A stretch of DNA of 43,176 nucleotides, from contig CAJXRR010000002.1 of assembly GCA_913060575.1 (NCBI GenBank), positions 1-43,176 of the forward strand, read 5' to 3'. Position numbers and translations under genes: made by a program. The notes beneath the pieces are model-generated. The model was not told the origin of the DNA, did not search any database, and saw only the letters and a program-made list of their open reading frames with translations. Source of the DNA: an uncultured Flavobacterium sp. Lineage in GTDB: Bacteria; Bacteroidota; Bacteroidia; Flavobacteriales; Flavobacteriaceae. Below are positions 1 to 16,057 of the stretch, one piece after another. Within the stretch, counting starts at the first letter, position 1. Each line of letters starts with the position of its first letter.

Positions 1-45
1 ACACAGAGTAGATCGTCGGCAGCGTCAGATGTGTATAAGAGACAG
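1..45 (+). other. Illumina Nextera adapter and i5 index left on the contig end
   Basis: Bases 13-45 match the 33-nt Nextera read-1 transposase adapter, ending in the Tn5 mosaic end agatgtgtataagagacag (27-45). Bases 5-12 (agagtaga) match Nextera i5 index S504, and bases 1-4 (acac) match the end of the P5 primer. This is synthetic library DNA, not genome. It also creates a false GTG start at 31 giving the peptide MYKRQ. True genomic sequence begins at 46. The match is from memory of the adapter sequences but is exact over all three parts. Confidence 0.98.
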
Positions 46-663
46 ATGCTAGGCTGTCATGACGGAATCCCCGTATTAGATCTAAAAGGGAAAAAAGTAA
101 ATGGAGTCTATCACGAAGGGTTATTAAAAGATAACGAGATTGAAGAAGTCATGAATATTATAATAGACCGTGGTGGAAGAGTAAAAAACCTCTATGACCC
201 TTCTGGAAAAAAAATATCATACTATCAAGTAAATGCCACTTTTTTTAGTGCTTTAGGAGAAGATAACCAAAAGATGTTATTAGCTCGGGCAATCCAAATG
301 TTTATGCCAGGAATTCCACAAGTTTGGTATTTAGATATTTTTGCAGGAAAAAATAATTACTTAGCTGCAGATAAACGAGGAAGTGGAAGTCATAAAGAAA
401 TTAACAGAACTACTTTGTCTGAGGAAGATATTTCTGAAGGACTAAAAACTCCAATTGTTAAGAATCAATTAAAAATAATGAGATTAAGAAACACTTCCAA
501 AGCATTTTTAGGAGAAGTGAATATTAATGATTCTGAAGAGAATATACTTGATATCACCTGGTCATCAAAAAATGAATTTGCTCAATTAAAAGCAGATCTT
601 ACTAAGTATATTTTCTCAATACATTATTCAGAAGAAGGAGTTCGCAAGCAAATTAAATTTTAA
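46..663 (+). CDS. Sucrose-phosphorylase-like GH13 enzyme (subfamily 18 type), C-terminal part only
   Basis: This is the last ~205 residues of a GH13 phosphorylase; the family is usually about 480-580 residues, so the catalytic nucleophile and acid/base lie off the contig. The visible part starts at the conserved region IV motif CHDGIP, whose Asp is the transition-state stabilizer. It continues with ALGEDNQKMLLARAIQ, MPGIPQVWYLDIFAG and the basic/Asn-rich HKEINRTTLS stretch typical of sucrose phosphorylases. Members split sucrose, sucrose 6-phosphate or glucosylglycerate with phosphate, giving glucose 1-phosphate; which substrate applies here cannot be told from the C-terminus. The ORF-track start at 31 is in adapter DNA. 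The ATG at 46 is an internal codon, so the gene is 5'-truncated by the contig end. It lies far from the starch locus and has no visible partner gene. Confidence 0.82.
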   Translation: MLGCHDGIPVLDLKGKKVNGVYHEGLLKDNEIEEVMNIIIDRGGRVKNLYDPSGKKISYYQVNATFFSALGEDNQKMLLARAIQMFMPGIPQVWYLDIFAGKNNYLAADKRGSGSHKEINRTTLSEEDISEGLKTPIVKNQLKIMRLRNTSKAFLGEVNINDSEENILDITWSSKNEFAQLKADLTKYIFSIHYSEEGVRKQIKF

Positions 664-890: not shown

Positions 891-3161
891 ATGAGTGATT
901 CTAGAAAAAGACACGAAGCTTTACTATACCACGCAAAACCAAAACCAGGAAAAATTGAAGTTGTTCCGACAAAAAAATACACAACCCAACACGATTTGGC
1001 TTTGGCGTATTCTCCAGGAGTCGCAGAACCTTGTTTAGAAATTGCAAAAGACAGAAATAATGTTTACAAATATACCGCTAAAGGAAACTTAGTAGCGGTA
1101 ATTACCAATGGAACAGCTGTTTTAGGTTTGGGTGATATTGGTCCAGAAGCCTCAAAACCTGTGATGGAAGGAAAAGCATTGTTGTTTAAAATATTTGCAG
1201 ATATTGATGTATTTGATATTGAAATTGATGCAACAGATGTTGATAAATTTGTAGAAACAGTTAAGGCAATCGCGCCAACTTTTGGTGGAATTAATCTAGA
1301 AGATATTAAAGCTCCGGAAGCTTTTGAAATAGAAAGAAGATTAAAAGAAGAGCTGAATATTCCTGTGATGCATGATGATCAGCATGGAACAGCAATTATT
1401 TCTGCTGCTGCTTTAAAAAACGCGATAGAAATTACTGGGAAAGACTTGGCAAAAGTTCAAATTGTAATAAATGGTGCTGGTGCAGCTGCAATATCTTGTT
1501 CTCGTTTGTACATGAAATTAGGAGCTCAGAGAGAAAACATGGTCATGTGCGATAGTAAAGGTGTGATTAGAAAAGATAGAGGGAATTTAACTTCACAGAA
1601 AGAAGAATTTGCCACTGATAAAAATCTAAATACTTTAGAGGAAGCAATGCAAAATGCTGACGTGTTTATTGGCTTGTCAAAAGGAAATGTAGTCACGCCA
1701 GAGATGTTACTTTCTATGGCAAAAGATCCTATTGTGTTTGCCATGGCTAATCCAGAGCCAGAGATTTCATATGATGTTGCGTGTGCTACAAGAGAAGATA
1801 TCATTATGGCAACAGGAAGATCAGATCATCCTAACCAAGTAAATAATGTATTAGGTTTTCCTTTTATATTTAGAGGAGCTTTAGATGTTAGAGCAACAAA
1901 AATTAATGAAGAAATGAAGATGGCAGCTGTCAATGCTTTGGCAGATTTAGCCAAACAATCAGTTCCTGAACAAGTAAATATTGTATATGATGAGGTTAGT
2001 CTTTCTTTCGGAAAAGAATATATTATTCCAAAACCTTTTGATCCAAGATTAATTTATGAAATTCCTCCCGCAATCGCTAAAGCAGCCATTGATTCTGGAG
2101 TTGCTTTAGAGCCTATTGAAGATTGGGATAAGTATAGAGACGAATTAATGGACAGGTCAGGAACTGGAAGTAAAGAAATTAGATTACTTCATAACAGAGC
2201 CAAAAGAAGTCCAAAAACGGTTGTGTTTGCAGAAGCGGATCATTTAGATGTGTTAAAAGCTGCACAAAGAGTTCACGAAGAAAAAATTGGACTTCCAATT
2301 TTATTGGGAAGGAAAGAAGTGATTTTGGCTTTAAAAGAAGAATTAGGTTTTACAGCGGATGTTCCAATTTATGATCCTAAAACCGATGAAGAAGAAGACA
2401 GAAGAAATCATTTTGGTTATAAGTATTGGGAAACCAGACAACGTAAAGGAATTTCACTTTTTCAAGCAAAAAAATTAATGCGAGAGCGCAATTATTTTGC
2501 AGCAATGATGGTCAACGAAGGTGAAGCAGACTCATTAATTACCGGATATTCTAGACCGTATCCAACGGTTGTAAAACCAATGATAGAGTTGATTGGAAAA
2601 GATAAAGGTGTTTCTAGAATCGCGGCAACAAACTTGATGCTAACCAATCAAGGGCCTATGTTTTTAGCTGATACAACAATTAATATTAATCCTACTGCAA
2701 AAGATTTAGCGAAGATTTCTCAGATGACGTATAAGATTGCAAAAATGTTTGGTATGAAACCAAATATTGCCATGTTGTCTTTTTCTAATTTTGGATCTTC
2801 TAATTCAGAAAGCTCTCGTAAAATTCAAGATGCAGTCTCTTATATTCATAGACATTTTCCTAATGTTAATATTGATGGAGAATTACAAGCAGATTTTGCT
2901 CTAAATCCAGAAATGCTAGCAAAAGAATTTCCTTTTTCTAAATTAAACGGAAAAAAAGTAAATGTCTTAATATTTCCTAATTTAGAATCAGCAAATATTA
3001 CGTACAAACTATTAAAACAGATTGATGGTTCAGAGTCTATTGGGCCTATTATTCTTGGATTTAAAAAACCAGTTCACATTCTGCAATTAGGGGCAAGTGT
3101 AGATGAAATGGTAAATATGGCTGCAGTAGCAGTTGTAGATGCACAACAAAAACAGCGCTAG
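891..3161 (+). CDS. maeB: NADP-dependent malic enzyme with C-terminal phosphotransacetylase-like domain (MaeB type)
   Basis: It decarboxylates malate to pyruvate with reduction of NADP, in the cytoplasm. The malic domain has [12 protein letters not shown] near the N-terminus, then [17 protein letters not shown] and the [10 protein letters not shown] motif. An NAD(P)-binding domain follows (INGAGAAA). From about residue 430 to the end ([14 protein letters not shown] onward) there is a phosphotransacetylase-like domain, usually regulatory in this family. The length of 756 residues is typical for the fused bacterial enzyme. The ATG at 891 ([16 protein letters not shown]) is chosen over the TTG at 837 because family members begin there and a promoter overlaps the TTG. 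ruvA follows 40 nt downstream. Confidence 0.95.
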
Positions 3162-3787: not shown

Positions 3788-6700
3788 TTGAATCAGTTTC
3801 AAAAATACATTGTTTGTTTTTTATTTTTTGTTGGTTTTGCCAGCAATATAGATGCGCAGACAACTACTAAAAAGAAAGATTCTGTTACTACTAAAAAAGA
3901 CACCTTAGACCTTAAGTATAATTTTAATCACTCTAGAACGGGTAAAATGTTATTAAAATACCCCTCTAAAATTGAGGTTATTTATGACAAAGAACTTAAC
4001 AAATATGTTTTTGTAGAAAAAGTAGGAGATTACTATATAAGAACTCCCATATTTATGACTCCTGAAGAGTATGATAAATATCGTCTGAGAAGAGATATGT
4101 TAGAATACTTTAAGAGTAAGATTTCTGCCAGAAATAGTAGAGATGCGGCAGCTAAAAAAGATTTATTACCAACATATTATGTGAATTCTGATTTTTTTGA
4201 AACCATTTTTGGAGGAAATGAAATTAAAATTACACCCACAGGAAACATCAATCTTAAATTAGGTTTTATATATCAAAACACTGACAATCCTCAATTATCA
4301 GAACAGAATAGAAGTAGTTTTACATTTGACTTTGATCAACAAATAAACGCTGGTATACAAGCTCAAATAGGTGAACGCTTAAAATTAACAGCGAACTACG
4401 ATACACAAACTACTTTTGATTTTCAAAACTTAATTAAATTAGAATACACACCAAATGAAGATGATATTCTTCAAGGAATAGAAGCAGGTAATGTAACCAT
4501 GCCTATTAAAAACTCTTTAATAAATGGTGCACAAAGTTTATTTGGAGTAAAAACAAAACTCCAATTTGGAAAAACTAATATTACTGCGGTATTTTCTCAA
4601 CAAAACTCAGAAAGTAATACCGTTACAGCTCAAGGAGGTTCTTCTGTTCAAGAATTTGAATTAAGAGCAACCGATTATGATAACGACCGACACTTTTTCT
4701 TATCTCAATATTTTAGAGAAAATTATGCGAGATCATTACAAAATTATCCGCTAATTAGTAGTCCTATTAATATTACTAGAATTGAAGTTTGGATTACCAA
4801 TAGAAATGCATCAGTTGAAGACTTTAGAAGTATCGTTGCCTTTGCAGATATTGCAGAACCAAAACCAGAAAATTATGTAAGTGTGAATGGATTGGTAACA
4901 CCTTCACCAACAGCACCAGCTGTAAATACTGTTTTACTTCCAACCAATGAGTCAAATAATATTTCAGACGCCTTATCAAACTCGCAAATTAGAGATATAT
5001 CAACCGTAGATAGTTACTTGTCTGGAACCTACGGAATGAGTCAGGGTACTGACTATAGCCTATTACAAAATGCGCGAAAGCTTCAGCCTAATGAGTATAC
5101 ATTAAATTCTCAATTAGGTTTTGTTTCATTAAACCGAAGATTAAACGATGGAGAAGTTCTAGCAGTTGCTTATGAATATACCGTTGTTGGATCATCTAAC
5201 GGAGGAACTTCATTTAAAGTTGGAGAATTTTCAAATGACGGAATTACAGCTCCTGAAAATTTAGCTGTTAAGTTGTTAAGAAGTGAAATTTTAACAACAA
5301 AAAGAACAATTGCAGGTGTAGAAGAAGCGTTTCCTACTTGGAACTTAATGATGAAAAATGTATATGCGCTTGGGGCATTTCCATTAACACCAGATGGCTT
5401 TAGATTTGAGATTCAATATAGAGATGACCAAACAGGAATTCCTTCAAATACTTTACAAAATGCACAAACTACAGGTGTTGCAAACACACCTTTACTTCAG
5501 GTATTTAACTTAGACAGATTAGACCAAACACAATTTCAAACACCAGACGGTTATTTTGATTATGTAGAAGGAATTACCATTAATTCTCAAAATGGTTATG
5601 TGATTTTTCCACAAGCAGAACCTTTTGGAAACGATTTAGAATCTTCCCTAAACGTTCAGGCAGATGTTGATTTATTTGTGTTTAACGAACTGTATTTAGA
5701 TACAAAAATCAATGTAAAAAACAACAATCAGAACAAAGATAAATTCTTATTAAAAGGATATTTTAAATCTGAAAATAGTGGTGGAATTCCATTAAACGCA
5801 TTTAATGTTCCACGAGGTTCTGTAACAGTGACAGCCGGAGGAAGACAATTGGTAGAAGGTATAGATTATGTAGTAGATTACTTAGCAGGACGTGTTCAGA
5901 TATTAGATCCGGGGTTACAATCATCAGGAATCCCAATTCAAGTTTCAACAGAAAATAATGCGGTTTTTAATCAACAAAGAAAAACATTTATGGGAGTTGA
6001 TGTTGAACATATTTTTAACGAAAACTTCATATTAGGGGCCACCATTTTAAATGTAAATGAAAGACCATTAACACCAAAAGTAAACTTTGGTGTAGAACCT
6101 ATCAATAATACGATGTTGGGAATGAATTTAGATTTTTCAACAGAAATGCCAAAGTTTACAAAGTGGGTTAATAAATTACCATTTGTAGATACTGACGCTC
6201 CGTCAAATTTATCGATAAGAGCAGATATGGCATATTTAATTCCTGGTTCTCCAAGCGGAATAGATGTTTCAGGATCCGCAACAGCATATATCGATGATTT
6301 TGAGGCTTCTCAAATTCCGATTAGTTTATTAACTCCACTACAATGGTATACAGCAAGTACACCTCAAAGATCAGCCGCGAACTTAAATGGTTTAGCAGGT
6401 GATTTAACCTATAACGATTTACGATCTAGATTAGCATGGTATAATATTGATCCCATCTTTTATGGAGCAGGAAATACACCTGGCAATATTGATGCTGATG
6501 CACTTTCTAGAGCGGAAACAAGACAAATAAATTTTGATGAGTTATTTCCAAATCAAGAGTTAGATGTCACACAACAAACTTTGGTTAGAACCTTAGATTT
6601 ATCTTTTTTTCCGAGTGAAAGAGGACCTTATAATTTTGATACAGACAATGTAAGTTCAGATGGAACTTTTACAGATCCAAATACTCGTTGGGCTGGAATT

Positions 6701-9700
6701 ATGAGACCATTAACAACCAATAATTTTGAACAAGCCAACGTAGAATATATTCAGTTTTGGATGATGGATCCCTATACTAATTATTCTATTACTAACGCTG
6801 AAGGTTTGCCACAAGGAGTTAACCCGCAAGACCCACAAAACCAAGTTGGAGATTTATATTTTAACTTAGGAAATATTTCTGAAGATATCTTGAAAGATAA
6901 TCAGAAAATGTATGAAAATGGTTTGCCAACTGATGGATTAAACACGAATACTATTGATACACGTTGGGGAAAAGTTCCAAGAAACCCTTCAATTATTTAT
7001 GCATTTGATGAGGAAGATGCTTCACGTACTAGACAAGATATTGGTTTAGATGGGTTAACAGATGATGAGGAAAGAATTAAATTTCCAGCTTTTGCAAATC
7101 TAGAAGACCCCGCTTCCGATAATTATAGATATTACAGAGGAGGTGACTTAGACGCTATTGACGCCTCAATTATTACAAGATATAAATTGTTTAACAATAC
7201 CCAAGGAAATTCACCAACTCTAAATCAATCAACAGAATCTTTTCCGACGTCAGCAACTACATATCCTGATGTAGAAGACATCAACAAAGATCAAACTATG
7301 AATACGGTTGAGAGTTATTATGAATATAAAGTTTCATTAAATAGTAGCGATTTAAACGTGGGTCAAAACTTTATTGTTGATCAAAAAGATACCCAAGTAA
7401 CTTTAAATAACGGGCAAGTACAAACGGCAAGATGGTATCAATTTAGAATTCCAATTCGCAGTGGAACGCCCATCAATAATATATCAGATTTTAACAGCAT
7501 TCGTTTTATTAGAATGTTTATGACCAACTTTAAAATGCCAGTTGTTTTGCGTTTTGGAGAATTAGATTTGGTTCGTGGAGACTGGAGACGATACACAAGA
7601 ACATTAGACCCTAATATAAACCCAGATCAAGCATTAACGCAGCAAGAATTAAATAATTTTGAGGTAGGTGTTGTTAATATTGAACAAAATGAAGGAAGAT
7701 ATGTTTTACCTCCAGGAATTATTAGAGAAAGATTACAAGGGAGTACTACTGTTCAGCAGCAAAACGAGCAATCAGTTTCTATGACTGTAAATAATCTTGC
7801 TCAAAATAAAGTAAGAGCTATTTATAAAAACATTAGTGTTGATTTACGTAGATATAAAGAATTAAAAATGTTTTTACATGCCGAGCCAACGATGGTTGGA
7901 GGTGTTGGAGACGATGAATTATCTGCAATTATAAGATTAGGAACCGATTTAAATGATAACTTTTATCAATTAGAAATTCCTTTAAAAATATCTCCAAACG
8001 GAAGTTTAGCACCATTAGATGTTTGGCCAGAAGCCAATAATCTAGAAGCGATGCTAGAGGTTTTGGGGAAAACCAAGTTAGCAAGAGATGTTGCAAATGC
8101 TCCCATTAATGATTTATTTACGGCACCCGGAGGAAACCCTGGTGAATTGGTGATTAGAGTAAAAGGAAATCCAACGCTGGCTCAGATTAGAACTATTATG
8201 TTGGGTGTTAGAAATAATAGTCCAACAGATAAAAGTGCAGAAATTTGGTTTAACGAATTACGATCAGCCGGATTTGATAACGACGGAGGTTGGGCTGCAG
8301 TAGTAAGTGCAGATGCTAATTTTGCTGATGTCGCAAATGTTTCTATGACGGGTAGAATGCAAACCGTTGGTTTTGGAAATGTAGAGGATAGAGTGAGTCA
8401 ACGTTCTTTAGACGAAACTAAACAATATGATGTCTCTACGAGTATCAATTTAGGTAAAATGATGCCTAAAAGCTGGGGAATAGAGCTGCCAATGAATTAT
8501 AGTGTTGGTGAAACATTTATAGACCCGAAGTTTGATCCTCAATACCAAGATGTAGAACTTGCTGAAGTGGAAGACGCAGCTTTGTCTTCAAATATTCCTA
8601 GAGGAACCGATGTGTCTAGAGATTACACAAAACGCAAAAGTATCAGTTTTACTAATGTTAGAAAAAATCGTAATCCAGAATCATCTAAGAAACCAAAATT
8701 CTATGATGTAGAAAACCTTTCAGTATCTTATTCATTTAATGAAGAAACGCATCGAGATTATAATATTGAAAGAGCGATAAATCAAAATGTACTTGCCTCT
8801 GCTTCTTATAACTTTACTTTTGAACCGTTATATCTAGAACCTTTCAAGAAAAAAGAATTATTTAAAAGTAAGTACTTACAGTTAATAAGAGATATCAATT
8901 TTAATCCAATTCCAACAAGCCTTGCTGTTAATTCTAGAATCAATAGAACTTTTAATGAGCAACGTTCAAGAAATCTAGTAGAAGGCTTAAGCGCACAACC
9001 AACATTAAGGCAAAGAAGATTTTTATTTGATTGGGATTATGCTTTAGCGTTTAATTTTACTAAATCTTTAGCGGTTAATTTTAATGCAACCAACAGCTAT
9101 ATTTATGATGCTTTTGGAAATGGAGACGATTTAGAAATTTTTGATAATTTCTTTAATGTTGGAAGACCAAGTCAGTATCATCAAAAACTAAATACTACTT
9201 ATAAATTTCCAATAAATAAAATTCCACATTTAGGTTTCTTAGGAGTTGATTATGCTTATACCGCCGATTTTGATTGGAGCGCCACTTCTCAAGACGCTAC
9301 GATAGTAGAAAGAGTTGGGAATTTAATTCAGAATGCAAATACACATAACGTTACGGGTAATATTAACTTTGCAAAGCTTTACAAAGACACAAAATTTGAA
9401 AGCTTATTTGTAAAGAAAAAAGGAAGAGGGCAAGCAACTAAAAATCCCTTAGGAGGTCCAGGAGTTCCTAATCAGGTATCTGCAAGACAAAAAAATAAAC
9501 AACCTTTAGGGCAAAAAGTACTGAAAGGGTTTTATGATTTAATTACCTCAGTTAAAACAGGGAAAATTAGTTATACAGAAAACAACGGACAATTATTACC
9601 GGGTTACGAGCCAGAAGTAGGTTTCTTAGGAAGAGATAATTTTGGTGGAGGCTTAGCACCATCTTTAGGCTTTGTTTTTGGGAGTCAGGTAGATATTAGA

Positions 9701-10921
9701 AACAGAGCTCTTGAAAATGGCTGGTTAATAGCGCCAAGAGCAGATGGTCAAGATTATTATGATAAAACTTATGTAAGAACTCATTATAACAAATTAGATT
9801 ATAATTTTTCTTTAAAACCAGTTAAAGACTTAAATATAGAACTTACAGGAAACAAGATTACTACTAGAAGTTTATCACAACAATTAGATATTAGAGTAGA
9901 TGCTAGTGATCCTTCCGGAAATGGATTTATAGACGAAACTATTCCTGCGTTTATCACAGGAAATTTTAGCACAAGTCACTCAATGTTTTCTACCGCTTTT
10001 AAAGATGGAGACGAATTATTTCAACAATTAAGAACCAATAGAGTTGCCATCTCTAGACGATTAGGAGAACAAGCAGGAATCGATGTAAATGATCCAAGTA
10101 ATATAGACCCAGTAACTGGAACTGTAATAGGTTTTGGTAATAACAGTCAAGATGTATTATTACCAGCATTTTTAGCAGCATATTCTGGTAAAGATGCAGG
10201 AAAAGTGAAGCTTGGAATCTTTAGAGATATTCCTATTCCAGCATGGAATTTACGATACACAGGATTAATGAAATACAAATGGTTTAAAAAGAACTTTAGT
10301 AGTTTTAGTCTAAGTCACGGTTATAAATCTTCGTATACAATTTCTAACTTCACAAACAACCTTCAGTTTGATGCAAGCAATCCATCGGCAACAAATGCAG
10401 CTGGTAATTTCGAATCTAATATTTTGATCTCCTCAGCAACCTTGGTTGATGAGTTTTCACCGCTTATTCGTGTAGATATGAAGATGAAAAACTCATTTTC
10501 AATGCGTGGAGAAGTAAAAAGAGATAGAACACTTACTATGAATTTTAATAACAGTACGCTTACTGATATTAAAGGAACTGAATATATATTTGGTTTTGGT
10601 TATGTGTTTAAAGATGTAAAAATGAAGACTTCTTTTACAGGAAAGAAACAAACCTTGAAAGGTGATATTAATTTAAGAGCAGACGTTTCCTTAAGAGACA
10701 ATTTAACCTTGGTAAGGTCTGTAGATTCTGACAATGATCAAATTAGTGGAGGGCAAAAATTATTTTCATTAAAATTAACTGCAGAATACAGATTAAATAG
10801 TAATTTAACCACGTCGTTTTATTACAACCATCAAACGTCTAGATATGCGATTTCAACCACATTTCCAAGACAATCAATAAACGCAGGATTTAATTTTATA
10901 TATAATTTAGGAGGAAACTAA
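3788..10921 (+). CDS. sprA: SprA, T9SS outer-membrane translocon and gliding motility protein
   Basis: SprA (Sov in Porphyromonas) forms the giant outer-membrane beta-barrel through which T9SS cargo leaves the cell, and is needed for gliding in flavobacteria. The 2377-residue length fits the family. A signal peptide (about residues 1-23, ending NIDAQ) is followed by a long beta-rich protein with many aromatic-ended strands and the C-terminal strand FNFIYNLGGN. The start is TTG at 3788. An in-frame stop at 3770 rules out anything upstream, and the next ATG would remove the signal peptide. Its place between ruvA and gcvH matches my recollection of the Flavobacterium johnsoniae sprA region. A T9SS-sorted amylase in the same window is a likely client. 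Confidence 0.96.
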   Translation: MNQFQKYIVCFLFFVGFASNIDAQTTTKKKDSVTTKKDTLDLKYNFNHSRTGKMLLKYPSKIEVIYDKELNKYVFVEKVGDYYIRTPIFMTPEEYDKYRLRRDMLEYFKSKISARNSRDAAAKKDLLPTYYVNSDFFETIFGGNEIKITPTGNINLKLGFIYQNTDNPQLSEQNRSSFTFDFDQQINAGIQAQIGERLKLTANYDTQTTFDFQNLIKLEYTPNEDDILQGIEAGNVTMPIKNSLINGAQSLFGVKTKLQFGKTNITAVFSQQNSESNTVTAQGGSSVQEFELRATDYDNDRHFFLSQYFRENYARSLQNYPLISSPINITRIEVWITNRNASVEDFRSIVAFADIAEPKPENYVSVNGLVTPSPTAPAVNTVLLPTNESNNISDALSNSQIRDISTVDSYLSGTYGMSQGTDYSLLQNARKLQPNEYTLNSQLGFVSLNRRLNDGEVLAVAYEYTVVGSSNGGTSFKVGEFSNDGITAPENLAVKLLRSEILTTKRTIAGVEEAFPTWNLMMKNVYALGAFPLTPDGFRFEIQYRDDQTGIPSNTLQNAQTTGVANTPLLQVFNLDRLDQTQFQTPDGYFDYVEGITINSQNGYVIFPQAEPFGNDLESSLNVQADVDLFVFNELYLDTKINVKNNNQNKDKFLLKGYFKSENSGGIPLNAFNVPRGSVTVTAGGRQLVEGIDYVVDYLAGRVQILDPGLQSSGIPIQVSTENNAVFNQQRKTFMGVDVEHIFNENFILGATILNVNERPLTPKVNFGVEPINNTMLGMNLDFSTEMPKFTKWVNKLPFVDTDAPSNLSIRADMAYLIPGSPSGIDVSGSATAYIDDFEASQIPISLLTPLQWYTASTPQRSAANLNGLAGDLTYNDLRSRLAWYNIDPIFYGAGNTPGNIDADALSRAETRQINFDELFPNQELDVTQQTLVRTLDLSFFPSERGPYNFDTDNVSSDGTFTDPNTRWAGIMRPLTTNNFEQANVEYIQFWMMDPYTNYSITNAEGLPQGVNPQDPQNQVGDLYFNLGNISEDILKDNQKMYENGLPTDGLNTNTIDTRWGKVPRNPSIIYAFDEEDASRTRQDIGLDGLTDDEERIKFPAFANLEDPASDNYRYYRGGDLDAIDASIITRYKLFNNTQGNSPTLNQSTESFPTSATTYPDVEDINKDQTMNTVESYYEYKVSLNSSDLNVGQNFIVDQKDTQVTLNNGQVQTARWYQFRIPIRSGTPINNISDFNSIRFIRMFMTNFKMPVVLRFGELDLVRGDWRRYTRTLDPNINPDQALTQQELNNFEVGVVNIEQNEGRYVLPPGIIRERLQGSTTVQQQNEQSVSMTVNNLAQNKVRAIYKNISVDLRRYKELKMFLHAEPTMVGGVGDDELSAIIRLGTDLNDNFYQLEIPLKISPNGSLAPLDVWPEANNLEAMLEVLGKTKLARDVANAPINDLFTAPGGNPGELVIRVKGNPTLAQIRTIMLGVRNNSPTDKSAEIWFNELRSAGFDNDGGWAAVVSADANFADVANVSMTGRMQTVGFGNVEDRVSQRSLDETKQYDVSTSINLGKMMPKSWGIELPMNYSVGETFIDPKFDPQYQDVELAEVEDAALSSNIPRGTDVSRDYTKRKSISFTNVRKNRNPESSKKPKFYDVENLSVSYSFNEETHRDYNIERAINQNVLASASYNFTFEPLYLEPFKKKELFKSKYLQLIRDINFNPIPTSLAVNSRINRTFNEQRSRNLVEGLSAQPTLRQRRFLFDWDYALAFNFTKSLAVNFNATNSYIYDAFGNGDDLEIFDNFFNVGRPSQYHQKLNTTYKFPINKIPHLGFLGVDYAYTADFDWSATSQDATIVERVGNLIQNANTHNVTGNINFAKLYKDTKFESLFVKKKGRGQATKNPLGGPGVPNQVSARQKNKQPLGQKVLKGFYDLITSVKTGKISYTENNGQLLPGYEPEVGFLGRDNFGGGLAPSLGFVFGSQVDIRNRALENGWLIAPRADGQDYYDKTYVRTHYNKLDYNFSLKPVKDLNIELTGNKITTRSLSQQLDIRVDASDPSGNGFIDETIPAFITGNFSTSHSMFSTAFKDGDELFQQLRTNRVAISRRLGEQAGIDVNDPSNIDPVTGTVIGFGNNSQDVLLPAFLAAYSGKDAGKVKLGIFRDIPIPAWNLRYTGLMKYKWFKKNFSSFSLSHGYKSSYTISNFTNNLQFDASNPSATNAAGNFESNILISSATLVDEFSPLIRVDMKMKNSFSMRGEVKRDRTLTMNFNNSTLTDIKGTEYIFGFGYVFKDVKMKTSFTGKKQTLKGDINLRADVSLRDNLTLVRSVDSDNDQISGGQKLFSLKLTAEYRLNSNLTTSFYYNHQTSRYAISTTFPRQSINAGFNFIYNLGGN

Positions 10922-13999: not shown

Positions 14000-16057
14000 A
14001 TGAAGAAACTTTTTCTTGCCATCTATATATTGCTTCCTATTATGGGTTTCTCTCAGGTAGAGAAATTTCCTGTTTTTGATGAATGTACAGGAGAAACCAT
14101 AGAAAACATAAAAGATTGTTTTTTTAAGCAAACAAAAGAAACATTTTACAACGAGTTTAAAGAACCACCAATAATTGAAAACGAGAATTTTAAAGGAATT
14201 ATCAACGCTACTTTTATTGTAAATAATCAAGGTTTTTTTAAGCTGATTTATGTCAATTCACCTTATCAAGAATTAAAAGATGAAGTAGAACGAGTTTTTT
14301 TAAAATTCCCTAAAATAAAACCGGCGAGTTATAATAATCATAATGTAGAAATGCAATTTGTTTTTCCGTTGGTTTTTCCTTTGTTAGATGACCCAGAACC
14401 AGAGATGATCTATAATTACGAACCTCAAAAAAAAGACCTCAATAAGGTAGTAAAAAGGTTAGTAAACACATCCAAATACCCAAAACATACAAGTCATTTA
14501 AATATTCCATTTACACATCAACGTTATGTAGATTATGAATATGCAATGCATAAAAATAATACGCATACGGCTTCAAAACCTTATTTATATAAAGATGTAA
14601 ATCAACTGATAAATTTAGATTCTACAGTAAATCAATTTATCAAACCTGAAAAACAAACTTGGCTTGGGAGAAAAGTTTGGAATGAACACTTATTATCCGT
14701 TCAAGGAGAAGATTATTGGTTTAATTTAGATTTTTTAGTTGATGTTCAACTAGGAAAAGATAATTCAGATAATGTTTCTTTTACCTATAATAACTCTAGA
14801 ATTTTACAAATACAAGGAGGCTTAGGAGAACAACTTTCTTACTCTGCAACGGTATATGAAAGTCAAGGTAGATTTGCAGGATATGTCAATGAATTTATTT
14901 CTAACCCCTCATTAAATAATCGTCCAGCTTTTTCTGAAGGATTAGTGCCAGGAAGAGGAAAAGCAAAAGGTTTTAAAGACGATGCTTACGATTATCCTGT
15001 AGCAGAAGGATATTTGTCTTATACACCAAATAAATTCTTACAGTTTCAATTTGGACATGGAAGAAATTTTATAGGAGACGGATATCGATCTTTTGTGCTT
15101 TCAGATGTGGCTGCTCCCTCTTTATATTTGAAGGCATCCGTAGATTTTTGGAAGTTTAAATATACAAATCTTTGGATATGGGGGAACGATTTAAGACCCG
15201 CTTCTGTTATTAATAATGAGCATGCTAGAAAGTACATTGCTATTCATTATTTGAGCATCAATATTACAGAAAGATTTAACTTAGGACTATTTGAAACGGC
15301 AATTTCTTCAAGTGAAAATGGCATTGATGCAGGTTTTTTTAATCCTGTAATGTTTTATAGATCTGTAGAATTTAATAGAGGTGAAGATTCTGGAAACGCC
15401 TTAGTTGGTTTAACTGCTAAGTATAAATTATCAGATCAAATCTCACTGTATTCTCAATTGGTCGTTGATGAATTTTCTGTTGGAAATCTTACAAACTTAG
15501 GAGACTGGAGAAATAAATTTTCTATTCAACTGGGGACAAAATATTTTGATGCTTTTAAGGTTAAAAACCTATTCTTACAAGGAGAGTTTAACTATGCAAG
15601 ACCTTATACTTTTGCTCATAGAAACCCAATATTAAATTATGGAAATAATAATCAAGCCTTAGGTCATTTATGGGGTGCAAATTTTTGGGAATTGGTAGGA
15701 ATTGCTAGATATAAAAAAGATCGTTGGAGTGGAAGCGCAAAGTTAATCATTGGTAAAAAAGGATTTGATTTTGTAGATGAAACGACCAGTTATGGAGGAA
15801 ACATTTTTCAATCGTATGATATAAGACTTGGTGATACGGGAAATGCTCTAGCTCAAGGAAACGCAGCTACTATTTTTAATATAGACTTACAGGGAGATTA
15901 TTTAATCAACCCTTCTAATAATTTAAGTTTATTTGCAGGTGTTAGTTATCGTAATTTTTCGATTGATGCACCAACAAATGGATTCTCAACTAACAATAAT
16001 ATGTGGATAAGAGCAGGTATCCGAGCCGATTTATTTAACTGGTATTTAGATTTTTAA
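14000..16057 (+). CDS. remB: RemB-like gliding motility protein with N-terminal TonB-C-terminal-like domain
   Basis: The 685-residue protein has a signal peptide (residues 1-19, ending MGFSQ). Residues about 20-130 resemble the C-terminal domain of the two TonB genes just upstream: FPVFDECTG, IKDCFFKQTKETF, and FPKIKPASYNNHNVEMQFVFP line up with TonB PVFPGC..., CFNK..., and LLPKMKPG...VKYTLP. The rest is beta-rich with many aromatic strands and repeated FQFGHGRN / GLFETAISS-like elements, as in outer-membrane barrel or Wzi-like proteins. From memory, F. johnsoniae remB lies a few genes after sprA and gcvH, which supports the name. RemB is linked to gliding, but its biochemical role is not established. 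It could equally be called a capsule-assembly-like outer-membrane protein. Confidence 0.72.
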   Translation: MKKLFLAIYILLPIMGFSQVEKFPVFDECTGETIENIKDCFFKQTKETFYNEFKEPPIIENENFKGIINATFIVNNQGFFKLIYVNSPYQELKDEVERVFLKFPKIKPASYNNHNVEMQFVFPLVFPLLDDPEPEMIYNYEPQKKDLNKVVKRLVNTSKYPKHTSHLNIPFTHQRYVDYEYAMHKNNTHTASKPYLYKDVNQLINLDSTVNQFIKPEKQTWLGRKVWNEHLLSVQGEDYWFNLDFLVDVQLGKDNSDNVSFTYNNSRILQIQGGLGEQLSYSATVYESQGRFAGYVNEFISNPSLNNRPAFSEGLVPGRGKAKGFKDDAYDYPVAEGYLSYTPNKFLQFQFGHGRNFIGDGYRSFVLSDVAAPSLYLKASVDFWKFKYTNLWIWGNDLRPASVINNEHARKYIAIHYLSINITERFNLGLFETAISSSENGIDAGFFNPVMFYRSVEFNRGEDSGNALVGLTAKYKLSDQISLYSQLVVDEFSVGNLTNLGDWRNKFSIQLGTKYFDAFKVKNLFLQGEFNYARPYTFAHRNPILNYGNNNQALGHLWGANFWELVGIARYKKDRWSGSAKLIIGKKGFDFVDETTSYGGNIFQSYDIRLGDTGNALAQGNAATIFNIDLQGDYLINPSNNLSLFAGVSYRNFSIDAPTNGFSTNNNMWIRAGIRADLFNWYLDF

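Follow-up and report, generated by a model that had tools for sequence, protein, structure and literature searches.

Structure of the left end of the contig

The window (the whole stretch of DNA analysed, 43,176 bases) is contig 2 of a draft assembly of 180 contigs and 2.21 Mb, which is 77% complete. The features identified at its left end are as follows.

1..4, + strand: last 4 bases of the Illumina P5 / i5 primer arm, ACAC (the end of AATGATACGGCGACCACCGAGATCTACAC, identical in PMC10528933 and PMC5861650)
5..12, + strand: Nextera i5 index S504/N504, AGAGTAGA (published oligos; index and arm copies across the assembly)
13..26, + strand: Nextera read-1 adapter arm, TCGTCGGCAGCGTC (exact sequence; published oligo)
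27..45, + strand: 19-nt Tn5 mosaic end, AGATGTGTATAAGAGACAG (no mismatch; contains ATG at 29 and GTG at 31)
46..54, + strand: first 9 genomic bases, ATGCTAGGC, the would-be Tn5 target duplication site (opening with an ATG that encodes an internal Met)
46..663, + strand: 3' remnant of a sucrose-phosphorylase-like GH13 gene, 205 codons and a stop (TIGR03852 profile; four congener homologues)

The order is therefore ACAC-AGAGTAGA-TCGTCGGCAGCGTC-AGATGTGTATAAGAGACAG, followed by genomic ATGCTAGGCTGTCATGACGG. Bases 1-45 are identical at 45 of 45 positions to the 3' part of a published Nextera i5 S504 oligo, oFH146 (PMC10528933), and the N504 i5 oligo (PMC5861650) has the same sequence save one inserted UMI. 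An earlier note on this DNA had read these bases as the P5 end, i5 index S504 and Nextera adapter and had proposed aligning them to Nextera oligos; the exact identity obtained in that alignment bears the reading out. The stretch has the layout of an i5-side Nextera or Nextera XT adapter with index S504 (N504), i.e. the TCGTCGGCAGCGTC arm lies directly 5' of the mosaic end, the 8-base slot is filled by an index from the i5 set and is preceded by the P5 bases ACAC (of ...CTACAC), and further copies, accompanied by the matching i7 arm, sit at contig ends across the assembly. It differs from the complete oligo in that P5 is reduced to its last 4 bases. In other public contigs, the i5 slot is occupied by other members of the index set, e.g. 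TATCCTCT, GTAAGGAG, and CTCTCTAT.

Given the base composition of the window, the numbers of exact 33-mer and 45-mer matches expected by chance are 1.6e-16 and 1.4e-23, respectively. The mosaic end is present in a single copy in the window (27-45) even with 3 mismatches allowed, and shuffled sequences contain 0.01 copies on average. At its right end (43176), the window is free of adapter.

Truncation of the GH13 gene

The 205-residue fragment encoded at 46-663 aligns with positions 284-468 of the 470 positions of the sucrose phosphorylase profile TIGR03852, so that the C-terminal third aligns. The earlier note had described the gene as truncated and had called for a search for the full-length gene in related genomes, and this search established the truncation: intact homologues, 61-74% identical to the fragment, are present in four genomes of the same genus, with open frames that span 584-595 codons and, in two of the four, encode 574 aa when counted from the first ATG, whereas the window contains the C-terminal third only. 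The alignment runs across the junction without a gap, the congeners having KTVN or KTIN followed by MLGCHDG, and the window having VYKRQ followed by MLGCHDG. Upstream of the junction, all four homologues continue with residues unrelated to those of the window. About 369 N-terminal residues, of about 574, are thus missing from the window gene. When the first 369 residues of a congener protein were searched against the same 77% complete assembly, no match was obtained; as a rough control only, the C-terminal fragment was retrieved by the same kind of search. The missing part of the gene therefore probably falls in an assembly gap.

The fragment scores 127.9 bits against TIGR03852 and the intact congeners 328-330 bits, neither of which reaches the curated cut-off of 334.4 bits. 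The closest PDB entry to an intact congener homologue is 6s9u, a 'putative sucrose phosphorylase' (E 3.4e-199). Since the intact homologues lie just below the profile cut-off, no substrate was assigned, and the label 'sucrose-phosphorylase-like' is used here.

False start codons generated by the adapter

A mechanical ORF list begins a 210-aa ORF at the GTG at 31, which is read as M-Y-K-R-Q followed by MLGCHDG. The earlier note had called this start false, correctly, as the homologues run past the junction and the GTG sits in the mosaic end. The gene frame is open through the adapter to base 1, and the adapter is translated without a stop into the 15 residues TQSRSSAASDVYKRQ, so that a gene caller accepting partial genes would yield TQSRSSAASDVYKRQ, and one requiring a start codon yields MYKRQ from GTG 31. 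The first genomic codon, at 46-48, is an ATG for an internal methionine that all four homologues share. Because of this ATG, a second false start remains once the adapter has been trimmed, and an ORF caller would again give a seemingly 'complete' protein of 205 aa. The window gene should carry a 5'-partial label. In the three frames of the mosaic end, translation gives MYKRQ from the GTG, MCIRD from an ATG (position 29 in the window), and a stop, respectively.

It might be supposed that the gene encodes a genuine short protein beginning near base 31 or 46, as the open ORFs of 210 aa from GTG 31 and 205 aa from ATG 46 would allow. This is very improbable: the 584-595 codon frame of all four intact congeners extends far beyond what the window retains, the match to TIGR03852 starts only at profile position 284 of 470, and genomic DNA ahead of base 46 is absent from the window.

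Another claim of the earlier note was that any database protein carrying MYKRQ at this N-terminus would be wrong. This holds for the window gene, but an adapter-made N-terminus is diagnosed by adapter DNA at the junction and not by the five residues on their own. The claim as extended to database entries is a sound inference rather than a demonstrated fact.

Distribution of adapter copies in the draft assembly

Pattern searches of the 180-contig assembly detected 219 copies of the mosaic end, 76 copies of the S504 arm (AGAGTAGA plus TCGTCGGCAGCGTC), and 101 copies of the i7 arm (GTCTCGTGGGCTCGG plus the mosaic end), whereas a control pattern consisting of the reversed (not complemented) mosaic end gave 0. 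Thirty ends were read base by base. Wherever an index could be read among these, it was CTAGTACG on the i7 side and AGAGTAGA on the i5 side; CTAGTACG is N702 of the Nextera index set, written as on the adapter strand. As all readable indices at the 30 ends are S504 or N702, one dual-indexed library accounts for all of them. The S504 and N702 indices each recur in several unrelated records, so no named sequencing run was assigned to the pair. Other contig ends of the assembly retain more of the P5 arm than the window does, e.g. ATCTACAC.

All of the 30 ends are located within 55 bases of a contig end, as checked against the lengths of the contigs. This comparison was made for these 30 ends, and the remaining matches were judged by start position; among the matches listed, those on the + strand all begin at base 36 or earlier. 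The view in the earlier note that the left edge of the window is an assembly end agrees with this distribution. ORFs of at least 100 codons start within the adapter at 8 of the 30 ends, these being mechanical ORFs and not annotated genes. S504 or N702 Nextera arms are present on most contig ends of the draft, and the genes located there have false N- or C-termini.

The mosaic-end motif is absent from 57 of 58 relatives, including all 47 genomes that are at least 90% complete. The sole other positive relative is an 84% complete draft of the same genus (G014) with 17 copies, which among the matches listed are at contig starts in every + strand case. Adapter at contig ends or gap edges is the usual form of untrimmed-adapter contamination of drafts, as in public genomes, viral contigs, phages, and plasmids, but the contamination is unusually heavy in the assembly of the window, with 219 copies per 360 contig ends.

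Signature of tagmentation and origin of the 45 bases

The target consensus of Tn5 is GNTYWRANC (cited in PMC8224930). In the genomic DNA directly inside 174 junctions, an average of 3.79 of the 7 scored positions match this consensus, compared with 2.67 at random window positions (sd 0.09; maximum of 1000 samples, 2.99) and 2.2-3.0 at shifted offsets. The strongest skew was observed at junction positions 1, 2, 4, 5, 6, and 9. This target bias indicates that the junctions are tagmentation ends, cut by Tn5 transposase during library preparation. With 4 of 7 positions matching, the junction of the window itself, ATGCTAGGC, is uninformative taken alone.

It is virtually certain that Illumina Nextera library adapter was retained at the contig end as bases 1-45, and that the gene at 46-663 is, in consequence, a 3' remnant for which GTG 31 is no start codon. 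The exact adapter identity and the target bias at the sister junctions show that Tn5 transposase cut the genomic DNA immediately ahead of base 46 and attached the mosaic end to it; the S504 i5 arm was added by PCR. Inserts shorter than the read length may then have let reads enter the adapter, which was presumably left untrimmed, and the assembler would have carried the contig into the adapter for about 45 bases before stopping. As the adapter sequence is common to all inserts, the assembly path would branch and the contig would end there.

The idea that bases 1-45 are genomic, being the end of a natural Tn5/IS50 element or of an engineered mini-Tn5 insertion beside the gene, draws on the descent of the 19-nt mosaic end from a transposon-end sequence, but its probability is negligible and it was ruled out, because the S504 index and P5 bases lying outward of the mosaic end are exclusive to Illumina primers, 219 copies placed at contig ends wherever checked, half of them with the unrelated i7 arm, are impossible as natural insertions, the intact congeners have no element inside the gene, and 20,395 E. 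coli chromosome and plasmid records gave 0 matches.

The feature assigned here to the Nextera adapter is a sequencing artefact, i.e. an ordinary and widespread assembly error, and not biology. Its identification removes one false protein N-terminus and one false gene boundary, and is of value for quality control only. The left edge of the window, like most contig ends of the draft, is a library artefact, and no claim that a gene is absent, starts, or is fused at an adapter-bearing end should be retained.

Adapter sequences in public records

Adapter artefacts of this type are certainly familiar in general. The same adapter also occurs in other public drafts and in phage and plasmid records, and at least one annotated protein starts inside it. 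Scans of GTDB species genomes and IMG/VR identified the adapter in at least 119 and at least 120 stretches, respectively, with 133 and 127 junctions in the matches listed. Among these, 121 of 133 (GTDB) and 125 of 127 (IMG/VR) junctions are within 100 bases of a stretch edge, and most of the remaining ones adjoin N runs or a second adapter arm. The 33-nt arm is present in 26 of 50,697 phage records and 8 of 72,556 plasmid records; no match to it was found in the E. coli chromosome and plasmid records of the complete-genome set (20,395).

In GenBank, the annotated start of VUF54202.1 of Escherichia phage ev017 (LR597643.1; L280 92-322) falls within the adapter, so that the protein begins with MCIRD, and the annotated phage protein VUF54226.1 (LR597653.1; L276 2-229) contains RRQRQMCIRDS. 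Among the papers covered by a literature search for the adapter peptides, none deals with the artefact and none prints MCIRDS or the 3' adapter peptides; the matches to DVYKRQ include transposon-mutagenesis papers, and MYKRQ has a match in PMC4658143. Mosaic ends at contig ends very probably act as systematic false starts in two of three frames, such that a recognisable share of public MAG and viral N-termini would be adapter-made. If this is true, a count of such cases, based on the adapter peptide in combination with adapter DNA, would provide a practical resource for clean-up.

Internal mosaic ends, more than 100 bases from an edge, were also observed in public contigs (L107, ~3073-3091; L113, 3882-3900; L159, 2168-2186; and L075, 151-169). 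Some of these adjoin N runs, poly-C, or full P5/P7 arms, and others resemble chimeric joins. Nextera arms are also found within 'complete' plasmids, namely NZ_CP040712.1 (254307-254339; L279) and other Klebsiella plasmid records, and one such arm underlies an annotated hypothetical protein on the opposite strand.

Other genes in the window

The window also contains a complete gene for the T9SS outer-membrane translocon SprA/Sov (3788-10921; TIGR04189, 2509 bits), which adjoins ruvA, gcvH, and a vanZ-like gene. These genes indicate a genome of the Bacteroidota, probably of the Flavobacteriia. A 685-aa ORF at 14000-16057 has no Pfam or NCBIfam match at E 0.001. The region at 16139-42853 is an alpha-glucan utilisation locus, which includes an alpha-amylase with a T9SS sorting tail and the Sus-type components SusD, two SusE/F-like proteins, and a TonB-dependent receptor (SusC-like). 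Further genes of this locus encode a LacI-type regulator, a sugar symporter, beta-phosphoglucomutase, a GH65 enzyme, and several GH13/GH31/GH97-like proteins.
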